Origin: an uncultured Acidobacteriota bacterium
Lineage (GTDB): Bacteria; Acidobacteriota; Vicinamibacteria; Vicinamibacterales; UBA2999
Direction: 5' to 3'
Assembly (NCBI GenBank): GCA_902826065.1
Contig: CADEDM010000025.1
Span: 1-39,413, forward strand
DNA length: 39,413 nucleotides
Under the pieces are notes generated by a model. It was not told where the DNA came from, did not search any database, and was given only the letters and a program-made list of their open reading frames with translations. Of this stretch, positions 1 to 14,041 are shown in pieces. The position numbers and the translations under genes are program-made. The first letter of the stretch is position 1; every line of letters starts with the position of its first letter.

Positions 1-189
1 CCGAACGGCAAGAACGAAGGCAACCATCTCGTCGCCGTCGACACCGTCGACGCCGGTGTCGGCGAGACGGTGATCATCGTGAGCGGCAGCTCGGCGCGCA
101 TGGCGTCGGGCATGAAGGACCTGCCCGTCGACGCGGTCGTCGTCGGCATCGTCGACCAGGTCGACGTGCCTCCGACGCCAACGTCTTGA
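1..189 (+). CDS. BMC vertex protein (EutN/CcmL family), 5'-truncated
   Basis: The last 62 residues of a BMC-P shell protein; the start lies upstream of the window. BMC-P proteins form pentamers that cap the vertices of the microcompartment shell. The visible part carries the family signature LVAVDTVDAGVGETV, then GSSAR and the C-terminal strand VVVGIVDQVDV, which match the two downstream paralogues (AVDSVGAGVGE and AVDGVGAGVSE). The GSSAR stretch is the classical EutN/CcmL form and is lost in the next two copies, so this is the most canonical of the three. A 141-nt gap follows, unlike the tight packing of the rest of the locus. Family assignment is firm. The compartment's chemistry cannot be read from this piece because the hexamer and enzyme genes must lie upstream. 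Confidence 0.9.
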   Translation, partial: PNGKNEGNHLVAVDTVDAGVGETVIIVSGSSARMASGMKDLPVDAVVVGIVDQVDVPPTPTS

Positions 190-330: not shown

Positions 331-600
331 ATGCAGATCGGGCGCGTCATCGGCGACGTCGTCGCCACCCGCAAGGACCCGGCGTACCACGGCATCACGC
401 TGCTCGTCGTGCAGCCGCTCGGTGCGTCGCGCGAGCCGCAGGGCCGGCCGATCGTGGCCGTCGACAGCGTGGGCGCAGGCGTGGGCGAGCACGTGTTCTT
501 CGTCCGCGGCAAGGAAGCGTCGTTCCCGTTCCATCCCACCGAGGTGGCGGCCGACGCCGGCATCGTCGGCATCCTCGATCACTGGACGGTGGGGGAATGA
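331..600 (+). CDS. BMC vertex protein (EutN/CcmL family)
   Basis: A complete 89-residue BMC-P pentamer protein, the usual size for the family. It begins MQIGRVIGDVVATRKDP, the standard EutN/CcmL opening strand, has VQPLG, AVDSVGAGVGEHVFFV in the middle and GIVGILDHW at the end. It would close vertices of the icosahedral shell. The ATG at 331 is preceded by GGAGG at 315-319. The stop overlaps the next start (ATGA at 597-600), so the two paralogues are translationally coupled. Compared with the truncated copy upstream it has lost the GSSAR stretch (here RGKEASFPF), which may mean a distinct position or partner in the shell. It is one of three tandem, clearly diverged copies. Confidence 0.93.
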   Translation: MQIGRVIGDVVATRKDPAYHGITLLVVQPLGASREPQGRPIVAVDSVGAGVGEHVFFVRGKEASFPFHPTEVAADAGIVGILDHWTVGE

Positions 601-869
601 TCCTCGGACGGGTCGTCGGACAGGCCGTGGCCACCATCAAGCGCCCGCAGTTCGAGGGCGCGAAGTTGCTGCTGGTGCAGCCCGAGACGCCCGAGGGCAC
701 GCCCTTCGGCGCGACGCTGCTGGCCGTCGACGGTGTCGGCGCGGGCGTGAGCGAACGTGTGCTCGTGGTGGTCGAAGGCCGTGCCGCCGGCGAGATCGTC
801 GGCCGCAAGCTGACGCCCGTCGATGCCGCGATCGTCGGCATCGTGGACCAGGTCGACGTCGAGCCCTAG
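597..869 (+). CDS. BMC vertex protein (EutN/CcmL family), third copy
   Basis: A complete 90-residue BMC-P protein. Landmarks are MILGRVVGQAVATIKRP at the N-terminus, LLLVQPE, AVDGVGAGVSERVLVVVEG and AAIVGIVDQVDVEP at the C-terminus. It differs from its neighbour at many surface positions, for example EGTPFGATL in place of REPQGRPIV, so the copies are old duplications rather than recent ones. Its start overlaps the previous stop by 4 nt, and the next gene begins 2 nt after its own stop. Several BMC types carry three BMC-P paralogues, so the set is not unusual in number. The role is shell closure; specific interactions are unknown. Confidence 0.93.
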   Translation: MILGRVVGQAVATIKRPQFEGAKLLLVQPETPEGTPFGATLLAVDGVGAGVSERVLVVVEGRAAGEIVGRKLTPVDAAIVGIVDQVDVEP

Positions 870-871
870 CA

Positions 872-1138
872 ATGGACGAACAGCAGGTCCGACTGCTCGT
901 GCGCCAGGCGATTGCCCGCCACATGGGCGGCGCGCCAGCGGCAGCCCCGGCGGCGGGCGCCCCTCGCCCGGGCGTCTCGTCGCTCCCGCCCGAAGCGCTC
1001 ATGCCCGAGGCGGTGGCCGCCGGGCACCTGAGCGTCGCGAAGTTCCACCTCGTCCGGCCCGCCGGCGAGACCGAATGCCTGATCGAGCCGACGGTGACCT
1101 GCAACCACTGCGGCCACTGCCTTTGCTACGGTCACTGA
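872..1138 (+). CDS. Small Cys/His-rich protein with encapsulation-peptide-like N-terminus (putative BMC cargo)
   Basis: I do not recognise this 88-residue protein as a named family. It has three parts. Residues 1-18, MDEQQVRLLVRQAIARHM, form an amphipathic helix like the encapsulation peptides that target enzymes into BMC shells. Residues 19-34 are a Gly/Ala/Pro linker, as usually follows such peptides. Residues 35-88 form a small domain ending in CNHCGHCLCYGH, with Cys69, 77, 80, 83 and 85 and His79, 82 and 88; the CX2CX2CXC spacing suggests a metal or Fe-S site. It begins 2 nt after the third vertex gene and ends 10 nt before the dehydrogenase gene, so it is co-expressed with the shell. Targeting to the lumen and redox or metal function are inferences. 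A modified (RiPP-like) peptide is a less likely alternative, since no maturase is adjacent. Confidence 0.8.
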   Translation: MDEQQVRLLVRQAIARHMGGAPAAAPAAGAPRPGVSSLPPEALMPEAVAAGHLSVAKFHLVRPAGETECLIEPTVTCNHCGHCLCYGH

Positions 1139-1148
1139 CATCCCGAAC

Positions 1149-2102
1149 ATGCCCAGCACGCCGTCCGTTCTCGTCACCCGCCGTCTGCCGTCCGCCGTGC
1201 TCGCGCGCCTCGAGGCCGCGTGCGCGATGGATCTCCACACCGAGCCGATCGCGATCACGCGTGAGTCGTTGCTCACGCGCGTCGCCGGCAAGGACGCGCT
1301 CGTCTGCCTGCTCACCGAGCCGATCGACGCGGCAGTGCTCGACGCCGCCGGGCCGCAGCTGAAGATCGTGGCCAACGTCGCCGTCGGCTACAACAACATC
1401 GACCTGGCGGCGTGCCGCGCCCGCAACGTCGTCGTCACGAACACGCCCGACGTCCTCACCAACGCCTGCGCGGATTTCACGTGGGCGCTGATCCTCGGCC
1501 TCACGCGCCGGCTGGGCGAGGGCGAGCGCGAACTGCGGGCGGGGAAGTGGAAGGGCTGGGCCCTCGACCACATGCTGGGCATGGAGCTGCGCGGCAAGCA
1601 GCTCGGGCTCGTGGGCATGGGCCGCATCGCGCGCGCGGTGGCGGACAAGGCGGCGGCCTTCGGGATGAGCGTGGCCTACACCGATCAGGTCGTGAGCGAC
1701 GTCCCGGGCGCGACCTCGATGCCGCTCGATCGCCTGCTGGCGACCTCGGACGTCGTGTCGCTCCACGTGAATCTCACGCCCGCGACGACGCACCTCATCG
1801 ACCAGAAGGCGCTGACGAAGATGCGCCGCACCGCCTATCTCATCAACACGTCGCGCGGGCCGGTGGTGGACGAAGCCGCCCTGGCCTGGGGTCTGCGTGA
1901 ACGCCTGATTGCCGGCGCGGCGCTCGACGTCTACGAGAAGGAACCCGTGGTGCACGCGGACCTGCTGGGGCTCGAGAACGTCATGCTGATTCCCCACCTG
2001 GCGAGCGCCACCACCGAGACGCGCACGGCCATGGCCGATCTCGCGGTGTCGAACGTGCTCGCCGTGCTCGACGGCCGTCCGCCGCTCACGCCGGTCGCAT
2101 GA
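1149..2102 (+). CDS. D-2-hydroxyacid dehydrogenase (glyoxylate/hydroxypyruvate reductase-like)
   Basis: A 317-residue NAD(P)-dependent D-isomer-specific 2-hydroxyacid dehydrogenase of normal family length. The substrate domain comprises residues 1-105 and the C-terminal end; the nucleotide-binding domain has GMGRIA at 156-161. The catalytic triad is intact: Arg236 in NTSRG, Glu265 in DVYEKEP and His283 in IPHLASAT. YNNIDLAA and GLGRAI-like spacing resemble glyoxylate reductases (GyaR/GhrB type) more than formate or phosphoglycerate dehydrogenases, but the substrate is not certain. It lies 10 nt behind the Cys-rich BMC gene and overlaps endonuclease III by ATGA (2099-2102). No encapsulation peptide is visible at either end. 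It may reduce or oxidise a 2-hydroxyacid made in the compartment, which is an inference from position. Confidence 0.9.
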   Translation: MPSTPSVLVTRRLPSAVLARLEAACAMDLHTEPIAITRESLLTRVAGKDALVCLLTEPIDAAVLDAAGPQLKIVANVAVGYNNIDLAACRARNVVVTNTPDVLTNACADFTWALILGLTRRLGEGERELRAGKWKGWALDHMLGMELRGKQLGLVGMGRIARAVADKAAAFGMSVAYTDQVVSDVPGATSMPLDRLLATSDVVSLHVNLTPATTHLIDQKALTKMRRTAYLINTSRGPVVDEAALAWGLRERLIAGAALDVYEKEPVVHADLLGLENVMLIPHLASATTETRTAMADLAVSNVLAVLDGRPPLTPVA

Positions 2103-2860
2103 GCACGGCGGCGGTCATGGCTCGCCCGGCCGGCGCCGGCGCCGCCACGCCGCGGCCGCGCGTGAAGGTCGGACGTCCCGACGCCGCACTGGTCGAGCGC
2201 GTCTTCCGCGAGCTGGCGCGGCGCATCGACGGCATGGAGCTGCCGGCGATCGAGAAGATCTCGGAGTCGCAGCAGGAAGATCCGTTCCAGGTGCTGATCG
2301 CGACCCTGCTGTCGGCGCGCACGCAGGACGCGACGACGCTGGCGGCATCGACCCGTCTGTTCGCGCGCGCCCGCACGCCGCGGACGATGGCGGCGCTCCC
2401 CGTGAAGGAGATCGAGCGCCTGATTTACCCGGTGAGCTTCTACCGGAACAAGGCGCGGCACGTGAAGGCGGCCTGCCGGCGGCTGGTCGACGCCTACGGC
2501 GGACGCGTGCCGTCGTCGCTCGATGAGCTGGTGACGCTGCCCGGCGTGGGGCGGAAGACTGCCACGCTCGTCCTCATCGTCGCCTTTCGCAGCCCCGACC
2601 ACGTCTGCGTCGACACGCACGTGCACCGGATTGCGAACCGCCTCGGCTGGGTCACGACCACGACGCCCGAACAAACCGAACAGGCGCTCTACGCCGTGAC
2701 CGACGCCCGCTGGTGGCCGTACATCAACCTCTACCTGGTGACCTGGGGCCAAAACTGCTGCCGTCCGGTGTACCCTCGGTGTGACGATTGTGCGATCGTG
2801 GCCGACTGTCCGCGCCTCGGCGTGACGAAGGTGGGCCACTCGAGAAAAGGAGCATCCTGA
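2099..2860 (+). CDS. nth: Endonuclease III
   Basis: A DNA glycosylase/AP lyase that removes oxidised pyrimidines in base excision repair. The 253-residue protein has the core LLSARTQD, the helix-hairpin-helix LPGVGRKTA with the catalytic Lys, the catalytic Asp in VDTHVHRIANRLGW, and a C-terminal [4Fe-4S] motif CX6CX2CX5C in NCCRPVYPRCDDCAIVADC. It is about 40 residues longer than the E. coli enzyme because of an Ala/Pro-rich N-terminal extension. The ATG at 2099 overlaps the dehydrogenase stop; a second ATG at 2117 would remove six residues. Its own TGA (2858-2860) shares one base with the next ATG, so three genes form a coupled chain. Confidence 0.95.
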   Translation: MSTAAVMARPAGAGAATPRPRVKVGRPDAALVERVFRELARRIDGMELPAIEKISESQQEDPFQVLIATLLSARTQDATTLAASTRLFARARTPRTMAALPVKEIERLIYPVSFYRNKARHVKAACRRLVDAYGGRVPSSLDELVTLPGVGRKTATLVLIVAFRSPDHVCVDTHVHRIANRLGWVTTTTPEQTEQALYAVTDARWWPYINLYLVTWGQNCCRPVYPRCDDCAIVADCPRLGVTKVGHSRKGAS

Positions 2861-11527: not shown

Positions 11528-12715
11528 ATGACCGACCGCCTCTACTACACCGACGCCTATCGCCGCGAGTTCGACGCGACGGTGACCGCCTGCGCACCCG
11601 ACGGGGACCGCTTTGCGGTGACCCTGTCGTCCACCGCCTTCTATCCGACGTCCGGCGGGCAACCGCACGATCTCGGCACGCTCGGTGGCCGTGCCATCGT
11701 CGACGTCGTGGATCACGACGACGGCGAGCTGGTCCACCTGGTCAACGGCGCGCTCGACCCGGGGGCCTTCGTGCACGGGGCCGTCGACTGGGGCCGCCGC
11801 TTCGATCACATGCAGCAGCACACGGGCCAGCACGTGCTGTCGGCGGCGTTCGAGGCCATCTGTCAGGCTCGCACCGACAGCTTCCATCTCGGGACATCGA
11901 GCGCCACCATCGACCTCCATCGCCTCGTGTCTCCCGCGGAGATCACCGCCGCGGAAGCCGATGCCAACCGCGTGGTGTGGGACGACCGCGAAGTGCGGGT
12001 GCGTTTCGTGACGTCGGAAGAGGCGGTGTCGCTGCCGCTGCGCAAGGAGTCCGTCCGCACCGGGACGCTCCGCCTCGTCGAGGTCGACGGCTACGATCTT
12101 TCGGCCTGTGGCGGCACGCACGTGGCGCGCGCCGGGGCGATCGGGATCATCAGCGTGACCGGCTGGGAGAAGTTCAAGGGCGGCACCCGCGTGGAGTTCC
12201 GCTGCGGCGGCCGCGCGCTGCACCAGCTGCGCGAGTGGCGCGACGCGTTCGGCGCCGCCAATCGCGTGCTCTCGGTCGGCGCCGTCGAACTCGCCCCGGC
12301 AATCGAGCGGCTGCAGTCCGACAACAAGTCGCTGGGCCGCACCGTGCGCACGCTGCAGGAGCAGCTCGCCGTGCACGTCGCCGCCGACCTCGTGGCGCGC
12401 GGCCACCGCGAGGGCGATCGGATCGTGGTGGCCGAGGCGCTCGACGGCTGGGACGCCGCCGGCCTGAAAGCGGTGGCCGCCGCCGTGGCGTCGACGCCGG
12501 GCGGATGCGCGGCGGTGTTTTCCACGTCGCAGCCGGCCCTGGTCGTGGTCGCGCGCGCGTCAGGCGTCGCCGTCGACGCGTCGGCGGCGCTCAAGGTGCT
12601 GGTGGCGCAGTTCGGCGGCAAGGGCGGCGGCAAGCCGGACATGGCGCAGGGCGGGGGCCTCACCGGGGACATCGCGGCACTCGTGGCCGCGGCTCGCACG
12701 GCGCTGCTGGCGTGA
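11528..12715 (+). CDS. Alanyl-tRNA editing protein, long AlaX type with DHHA1 domain
   Basis: A 395-residue free-standing editing enzyme that hydrolyses mischarged tRNA(Ala) (Ser- or Gly-tRNA(Ala)). The N-terminal part resembles the AlaRS beta-barrel (FYPTSGGQPHD). The editing site has H98-X3-H102 (HTGQH) and C194-X3-H198 (CGGTH), the four zinc ligands of the family. A coiled coil at about residues 245-285 leads to a DHHA1 domain ending GGKGGGKPDMAQGGG. The ATG at 11528 starts five bases after queC. The last base of its stop is the first of the aac(2') start, so the two are translationally coupled. Confidence 0.93.
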   Translation: MTDRLYYTDAYRREFDATVTACAPDGDRFAVTLSSTAFYPTSGGQPHDLGTLGGRAIVDVVDHDDGELVHLVNGALDPGAFVHGAVDWGRRFDHMQQHTGQHVLSAAFEAICQARTDSFHLGTSSATIDLHRLVSPAEITAAEADANRVVWDDREVRVRFVTSEEAVSLPLRKESVRTGTLRLVEVDGYDLSACGGTHVARAGAIGIISVTGWEKFKGGTRVEFRCGGRALHQLREWRDAFGAANRVLSVGAVELAPAIERLQSDNKSLGRTVRTLQEQLAVHVAADLVARGHREGDRIVVAEALDGWDAAGLKAVAAAVASTPGGCAAVFSTSQPALVVVARASGVAVDASAALKVLVAQFGGKGGGKPDMAQGGGLTGDIAALVAAARTALLA

Positions 12716-13254
12716 TGCCGCCGGCAGTGCAGCTCGTCACCACGGCCGATCTGCCGCTCGGGTGGCGCGAGTCCGCGCGGGCGTTGATGGATGCCGCCTT
12801 CGATGGCGACTTCAGCGCCGACGACTGGGCCCACGCCCTCGGCGGCTGGCACGCCCTCGTCGTCGACGACCAGACCGTGGTGGCCCACGCCGCCGTCGTG
12901 CCGCGGCGGCTCTGGCTCGGCGATCGGCTCGTGCGGAGCGGCTACGTCGAGGCCGTCGCCGTGGCGCCGGCGCGCCAGCGAACCGGGCTTGGGACGCTGG
13001 TGATGCAGTCCATCGGGGAAATCCTGCGGACGCAGTTCGAGGTGGGCGCGCTGTCGTCGGGCGAGTGGGCGTTCTACGAGCGCCTCGGCTGGACGCGCTG
13101 GCGCGGCCCGTCGTTCGTGTGCCAGGCCGACGGCCGCCGCGTCCGCACCGCCGACGAGGACGACGGCCTGATGACGCTGCACGGCTGGACCGCCGACGTG
13201 ATCGACCCCACCGTGGCGATCGCGTGCGACGATCGCGCCGGCGACCCGTGGTGA
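12715..13254 (+). CDS. aac(2'): Aminoglycoside 2'-N-acetyltransferase, AAC(2') family
   Basis: A 179-residue GNAT enzyme with clear end-to-end resemblance to mycobacterial AAC(2')-I. Shared stretches are FDGDFSADDWAHALGGWHAL, AHAAVVPRRL, GYVEAVAV, the acetyl-CoA loop RQRTGLGTL, GALSSGEWAFYERLGW and the C-terminus DDRAGDPW. From memory of the M. tuberculosis AAC(2')-Ic structure, aminoglycoside contacts are Asp35, Glu82, Asp152, Asp179 and the carboxylate of terminal Trp181; here Asp32, Glu79, Asp149 or Asp150, Asp177 and terminal Trp179 match. It should transfer acetyl from acetyl-CoA to the 2'-amine of aminoglycosides; a natural substrate other than antibiotics is possible. It overlaps alaX by one base, and base composition is like its neighbours, so it looks resident rather than freshly acquired. 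Confidence 0.9.
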   Translation: MPPAVQLVTTADLPLGWRESARALMDAAFDGDFSADDWAHALGGWHALVVDDQTVVAHAAVVPRRLWLGDRLVRSGYVEAVAVAPARQRTGLGTLVMQSIGEILRTQFEVGALSSGEWAFYERLGWTRWRGPSFVCQADGRRVRTADEDDGLMTLHGWTADVIDPTVAIACDDRAGDPW

Positions 13255-13273
13255 CCGGCGCAGCGCGCGCCGC

Positions 13274-14041
13274 CTACCGCGGCGCCATGCGCAGGGCGCC
13301 GTCGAGGCGGATCACTTCGCCGTTCAACATCACGTTCTCGATCACGTGACGCACGAGGGCGCCGTACTCGTCGGGGCGACCGAGGCGCGACGGGAACGGC
13401 ACCTGCTGGCCCAGCGAGATCCGCGCCGGCTCGGGCAGGGCCGCGAGCAGCGGCGTGTCGAAGATGCCCGGCGCGAGCGTGACGCAACGAATGCCCAGCG
13501 GCGCGAACTCGCGCGCCACCGGCAGGGTGAGCCCGACGACGCCGCCCTTCGACGCGGCGTAGGCGGCCTGGCCGATCTGGCCCTCGAACGCGGCAATCGA
13601 CGCCGTGTTCACGATCACGCCCCGTTCGCCGCCCTCGTCGGGCGTGTTGCCGGTCATGGCCGCCGCCGCCAGGCGGATCACGTTGAAGGTCCCGACGACG
13701 TTGACCCGCACCGTCTTCTCGAAGAGGTCGAGGGCGTGCGGGCCGTTCTTGCCGAGCACCTTGGCGGCGGGGCAGATCCCGGCGGCATTCACCACGCCGT
13801 GCAGCCCCCCGAAGCGCGTCGCCGCCAGCGTGACGGCGGCCTGCACGTCGGCCTCGCTCGTCACGTCGGCCTTCGCGAATGCGGCCTTCGCGCCCAGCGC
13901 GGCTTCGGCGGCGGCGCCGGTCTCGGCGTTGACGTCCACGAGCACGGCGTGCCCGCCGGCGGCCAGCACCGCTTCGGCAGCGGCGCGGCCCAGTCCCGAC
14001 GCCCCTCCGGTCACGAGGAACGTCTTCCCTTCGATGCGCAT
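13274..14041 (-). CDS. SDR-family 3-hydroxyacyl-CoA dehydrogenase (HSD17B10-like)
   Basis: A 255-residue short-chain dehydrogenase/reductase. NAD is bound by TGGASGLG (11-18) with an Asp at the end of strand 2 (VDVNAETG), favouring NAD over NADP. NAAG, Ser148 and Tyr161-X3-Lys165 form the catalytic centre. [35 protein letters not shown] closely matches type II 3-hydroxyacyl-CoA dehydrogenases (HSD17B10/FadB2-like), so fatty-acyl or branched-chain acyl-CoA beta-oxidation is the likely role. A good GGGAGAG sequence precedes the ATG at 14041. It converges with aac(2') and diverges from the YeiH-like gene. Confidence 0.9.

Follow-up and report, generated by a model that had tools for sequence, protein, structure and literature searches.

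A cysteine-tailed mini-protein with an encapsulation-peptide-like helix in the ACI-type microcompartment locus of Acidobacteriota

Introduction

What part could an 88-residue, cysteine-rich protein play among the shell genes of a bacterial microcompartment? The question is raised by the first genes of the 39,413-nucleotide stretch of DNA analysed here (the window), which is one contig, C25, of an uncultured Acidobacteriota bacterium whose genome is in 416 contigs. According to Sutter et al. 2021 (PMC8217296), the ACI locus comprises an aldolase with a C-terminal encapsulation peptide, a hydroxyacid dehydrogenase, a BMC-P triplet and BMC-H, together with an AldDh on a satellite locus and several proteins of unknown function, for the clusters of which HMMs were built. 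All of these listed components are found here too, whereas the main text of that work has no description of the small Cys protein.

Genomic context

The window opens within a microcompartment locus of ACI type; the aldolase and BMC-H genes that belong to it are on another contig (Table 1). The end of that contig (C93, locus L026) encodes a TPR protein, a YHS-like small protein, a class II aldolase (PF00596, E=3e-48) and BMC-H, and it stops partway through a BMC-P gene; the window likewise starts inside one. In relatives, the same gene order as that of C93 plus the window runs uninterrupted. Further contigs carry BMC-H with an aldehyde dehydrogenase (C216) and a lone BMC-H (C14).

The open reading frame between the third BMC-P gene and the D-2-hydroxyacid dehydrogenase gene translates to MDEQQVRLLVRQAIARHMGGAPAAAPAAGAPRPGVSSLPPEALMPEAVAAGHLSVAKFHLVRPAGETECLIEPTVTCNHCGHCLCYGH, followed by a stop codon. 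Its coordinates, length and sequence agree with those of the first-pass annotation, as do the two gaps, one of 2 nt from the stop of the upstream BMC-P (vertex) gene and one of 10 nt to the dehydrogenase gene downstream. A promoter and terminator scan gave no useful signal, and a comparison of C-termini revealed no encapsulation peptide on the D-2-hydroxyacid dehydrogenase.

Table 1. Features at the start of the window and on the contig that continues the locus
Feature	Position	Strand	Basis
BMC-P/EutN vertex protein 1, 5′ piece	contig C93, L026:18074-18217		gene start there
BMC-P/EutN vertex protein 1, 3′ part	1..189	+	EutN-type match 42 bits, window 1-174
BMC-P vertex protein 2	331..600	+	PF03319 E=1.6e-27
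BMC-P vertex protein 3	597..869	+	PF03319 E=1.8e-25
Mini-protein, 88 aa + stop	872..1138	+	ORF; family alignments A1, A2
Mini-protein residues 1-18, encapsulation-peptide-like helix MDEQQVRLLVRQAIARHM	872..925	+	aldolase tail peptide match, AF2, dN/dS
Mini-protein residues 19-51, variable Ala/Pro-rich linker, predicted disordered	926..1024	+	dN/dS, pLDDT
Mini-protein residues 52-88, conserved Cys tail	1025..1135	+	invariant Cys/Glu/Gly (65 distinct tails), dN/dS
Mini-protein tail core C69-H88	1076-1135	+
D-2-hydroxyacid dehydrogenase, ACI locus member	1149..2102	+	PF02826/PF00389
Endonuclease III-like gene, flanking	2099..2860	+	PF00730; synteny conserved

The YHS-like small protein (L026:16570-16845) combines an N-terminal hydrophobic helix with the motif DPVCGTFV..WFCSETCRDTF; in most of the ACI loci read, its gene is conserved directly ahead of that for the aldolase. 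Outside the order to which the window belongs, ACI class II aldolases carry a Cys cluster just before the encapsulation peptide—for example RCQACGYL..C, CVDCPSCGHP or CEHCPV—as seen in L072, L077, L101, L103-L105, L067, L078 and L086-L090; within that order, the aldolase C-terminus mostly retains a single Cys. In one MAG, the BMC-P2 gene (L040:9811-10070) and pdxJ (12417-13289) are each split between two frames, most likely by assembly errors.

Selection on the mini-protein and its occurrence with shell genes

Comparison of four congeneric copies gave dN/dS values of 0.07 for residues 1-19, 0.50 for residues 20-51 and 0.09 for residues 52-88, which identifies the mini-protein as a selected protein and not a chance open reading frame. 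Positions 872-1138 thus encode a real protein, the two ends of which are under selection while the linker is little constrained. It is present in 44 of 59 relatives.

We then scanned a phylum sample of 396 Acidobacteriota genomes, 164 of which contain EutN shell genes. The full-length mini-protein profile matches 47 genomes, all of them EutN-positive (p=1e-20), and the tail profile matches 87, of which 85 are EutN-positive (p=2e-37), although both p-values assume independent genomes, which these are not. The two EutN-negative exceptions are G184, which is 67% complete and has the gene at the end of a contig, and G304, whose marginal tail match (E=0.0036) looks like chance. Among 50 inspected copies, 48 follow a BMC-P gene of the same strand at a distance of less than 1 kb; those of L076 and L097 adjoin pdxJ—an ACI locus neighbour in the window's order—about 28 kb from shell genes. 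The link to microcompartments made by the first-pass annotation is therefore strongly supported. Within Acidobacteriota, the mini-protein is a component of the ACI locus, occurring almost only beside such shell genes.

Absences were seen as well. The sampled relatives G035 and G315 have neither EutN nor the mini-protein. A BMC locus of another layout in a genome of the window's order (L074 of G050: BMC-H, BMC-P, AldDh, two BMC-P) is without it, and so is an otherwise complete ACI locus of that order (L075), in which 68 nt separate BMC-P3 from the dehydrogenase (L075:7586-7654) and no copy is found elsewhere in the genome. The gene is therefore not strictly essential. The profile scans covered Acidobacteriota, whereas the scan of all genome contigs across phyla used the single protein as query and returned two close relatives, both acidobacterial. 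Viral contigs gave no match, nor did plasmids queried with a long relative. A second match in G040 (L042) is a photolyase and was discarded as chance.

The N-terminal helix

At their C-terminus, the aldolases of ACI loci carry a peptide such as TYRELTALIEDAVRQL. The 18 residues of the helix are too information-poor for HMMER, so they were compared with this peptide by means of gapless profiles. The profile of the mini-protein helix gives aldolase tails far higher scores than the C-termini of other proteins (p=3e-17); reciprocally, mini-protein N-termini score far higher than other N-termini with the aldolase peptide profile (p=2e-13). The two peptides align in register, mostly at one offset.

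In 23 of 23 close members, positions 6, 9, 10 and 14 of the helix are hydrophobic, and position 13 is so in nearly all; the helix is also Arg-rich, with an invariant R7. The amphipathic helix of the first-pass annotation is thus borne out only in part: the hydrophobic positions are conserved, but the hydrophobic moment is not above that of shuffled sequences (median p about 0.4), whereas that of the aldolase peptide is (p about 0.04). An AF2 model built from a 3-sequence alignment, with a mean pLDDT of 53, places a helix at residues 3-17 (pLDDT about 83 in residues 1-10), a linker with pLDDT below 50 at residues 20-57, and a low-confidence hairpin (74-76/83-85) around the Cys residues of the tail.

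The PduP peptide, MNTSELETLIRTILSEQL, aligns with the mini-protein helix without gaps, matching the hydrophobic positions 6, 9, 10, 13 and 14 as well as R11. Packaging of PduP requires E7, I10 and L14 (PMC11157265); the equivalents in the mini-protein are R7, V10 and I14, so that the conserved hydrophobic positions are shared, whereas an Arg stands where PduP has its critical Glu7. More broadly, a terminal helix of about 18 residues followed by a disordered, poorly conserved linker (AF2; dN/dS 0.07 versus 0.50 for helix and linker) is common to the mini-protein and to the peptide-bearing cargo of other microcompartments (PduP, PduD and PduL; PMC11157265, PMC12339742). Here, the cargo would be a 37-residue tail and not an enzyme.

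The BMC-H protein of the window's locus contains AMVKAA at residues 22-27 and AATDAGAAAA at residues 55-64, identical to the groove sequences reported for peptide binding (PMC11157265). Together with the in-register match to the aldolase peptide, these groove sequences support well the earlier reading of the helix as a cargo tag. Because residues 1-18 match the aldolase encapsulation peptide in register, it is well supported at the level of sequence that they would target the mini-protein to the shell lumen. Contacts of hydrophobic and charged residues are reported to drive the assembly of encapsulation peptides (PMC12339742), and one may speculate that the Arg-rich mini-protein helix pairs with the acidic aldolase peptide. 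In L072, L076 and L081, the N-terminus instead resembles a coiled coil; on the evidence of L072 and L076, tagging is therefore not universal.

The cysteine tail

The 65 distinct tails follow the motif C-x2-E-x(4,5)-C-x2-[C/S]-x(2,3)-C-x3-G-x-stop, which in the window's protein reads C69-x2-E72-x4-C77-x2-C80-x2-C83-x3-G87-H88. C69, C77, C83 and G87 are invariant, position 72 is Glu in 64 tails and Asp in one, and every tail ends one residue past the Gly. Residue 88 is His in 41/65, and otherwise Phe, Tyr or Leu. Position 80 is Cys in 56 tails and Ser in nine; among these nine, H88 is present in five, an extra Cys at position 78 in three, and neither in L093, the tail of which has three Cys and no His. 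At least four Cys/His are kept at the site in 64 of the 65 tails although the fourth ligand varies, as one would expect of a tetrahedral metal site. Metal binding by the tail is plausible on this pattern, and a putative four-ligand site, with zinc as the first candidate and Fe-S as the second, fits best. Copper binding and metal scavenging, both raised by the first-pass annotation, have no specific support.

Two other features of that annotation changed. Its CX2CX2CXC pattern fits this genus and some relatives but is not family-wide, since position 85 is mostly Ser across the family (C85 is a lineage trait) and the invariant C69 had gone unlisted. The conserved domain is also shorter than the 54 residues first given: it spans approximately residues 52-88, and its core is 20 residues long.

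The same tail is found in proteins of about 125-240 residues from other acidobacterial families, likewise encoded beside BMC-P genes (L086-L092, L096, L102, L073). No domain was recognised by hmmscan in the middle part of these longer relatives; a flavoprotein (PF02441) origin is not supported, with no hmmscan match and an hhalign probability below 1% from shallow profiles. Since the tail occurs on differing N-termini and on longer proteins, it is the constant part of the family.

The window's mini-protein has no match among Pfam or NCBIfam models, and distant members give only sub-threshold noise. To call the family undescribed, as was first done, is uncertain, since HMMs were built for clusters of ACI proteins that have no assigned function (PMC8217296). 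The organelle type is known, and the mini-protein appears to be an unnamed component of it. Among solved structures (PDB), the profiles match only the structural zinc loops of two MDR alcohol/ketose dehydrogenases (5vm2, 1e3j), over 14-19 residues and at sub-threshold E values of 0.03-0.6, the best being 0.03-0.1. Both share the stretch EPxVxCxxCxxC, but the MDR loop has its fourth Cys downstream, whereas the mini-protein has an extra conserved Cys 8 residues upstream and no MDR domain. As the downstream Cys of the MDR lobe (C-x2-C-x2-C-x7-C) is absent in 65/65 tails, assignment to that lobe was rejected; the likeness is probably convergence. An assignment to [4Fe-4S] ferredoxins was rejected likewise: the tail shares CxxCGxC after I-E/D-P with the ferredoxin motif CxxCxxCxxxCP, but the C-terminus comes at once where the fourth Cys should follow, none of the 65 tails has the full motif, and no Pfam ferredoxin match is above threshold.

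Proposed role and alternatives

How could a shell-targeting helix and a cysteine tail work together? From these patterns, we infer a lumen location, a bound metal and an adaptor role. The reading that we favour, with a probability of about 0.5, is that the mini-protein is a lumenal accessory of the ACI organelle—peptide helix, linker and Zn2+ knuckle—likely serving as an adaptor for an untagged partner. Residues 1-18 would be an encapsulation-peptide helix that resembles, in type and register, the peptide at the C-terminus of the locus's class II aldolase; this helix would bind to the inner face of the shell, pack together with other cargo peptides, or do both. Held by the disordered linker, the C-terminus would fold into a compact knuckle around a single metal ion (most likely Zn2+), with C69, C77, C83 and a fourth residue (C80, H88 or the extra C78) as ligands. 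This knuckle would be the functional core, because it persists across families even where the N-terminus differs. The likeliest role of the mini-protein would be to anchor an untagged partner—a vertex protein, for example, or the hydroxyacid dehydrogenase—on the shell or the cargo core; a D-2-hydroxyacid dehydrogenase is found near only 22 of the 50 inspected copies, and is therefore weaker as the sole partner. CcmN, the adaptor of the beta-carboxysome, is also small and non-catalytic, and joins cargo and shell through an encapsulation peptide. It has a beta-helix domain and carries the peptide at its C-terminus; the likeness is that of a small, non-catalytic joiner, with no sequence relation to the mini-protein seen.

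The same tail could instead bind a [4Fe-4S] (or [3Fe-4S]) cluster and pass electrons between lumen enzymes and the shell; for PduS/PduT, Fe-S-based passage of electrons through shells is a published proposal (PMC4207490). The ferredoxin half-motif after IEP invites this idea, and three invariant Cys with a fourth ligand that varies, plus an acidic residue that almost never changes, are as compatible with Fe-S as with Zn. We nevertheless consider an Fe-S protein unlikely: every member lacks the fourth ferredoxin Cys, 9/65 tails replace C80 with Ser, and neither an Fe-S nor a flavin partner was recognised in the loci. Class II aldolases belong to a family of Zn enzymes, so a lumenal metal donor that enters by the same peptide type and supplies or buffers Zn2+ for the aldolase is a further candidate. 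The aldolase and the mini-protein co-occur in most loci read, and the YHS-like Cys protein is conserved there too, but three Cys plus a fourth ligand make a tight, structural-type site that would be unusual for a labile donor, and we rate this role as quite unlikely.

Less probable still is a non-metal redox or disulfide element, whose Cys pairs would sense or buffer redox or react with aldehydes in the shell. The invariant C69 and C77, 7-8 residues apart, might form such a pair; a ligand site accounts better for the fixed spacing, for the replacement of one Cys with a compensating Cys or His, and for the invariable C-terminal end. A RiPP-like precursor peptide or an unrelated passenger gene is very improbable, since the superficial likeness of a helical N-terminus and a Cys-rich C-terminus to leader and core is opposed by the conservation of both ends, the lack of an adjoining modifying enzyme and the shell synteny across many families.

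Beyond the zinc-knuckle adaptor, a broader interpretation is possible, and we offer it tentatively: the family may represent a new class of BMC component, in which a detachable, ACI-specific C-terminal metal-knuckle tag would act as a metal-dependent adaptor or electron relay, and in which the Arg-rich helix would nucleate cargo with the acidic aldolase peptide. "Detachable" here means that the tag is carried by otherwise unrelated or shortened proteins in the ACI organelles of Acidobacteriota.

Significance

ACI is a widespread, uncharacterised microcompartment of abundant soil bacteria, and the mini-protein is among the few parts—neither enzyme nor shell—that are conserved across many families with the ACI locus. 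It is small enough for study as a whole protein, and its 18-residue tag and 20-residue tail lend themselves to separate study. Should it prove to be a metal-dependent adaptor or an Fe-S carrier, the entry of untagged enzymes or of electrons into the lumen would be explained, and the building of synthetic compartments would gain a new part.
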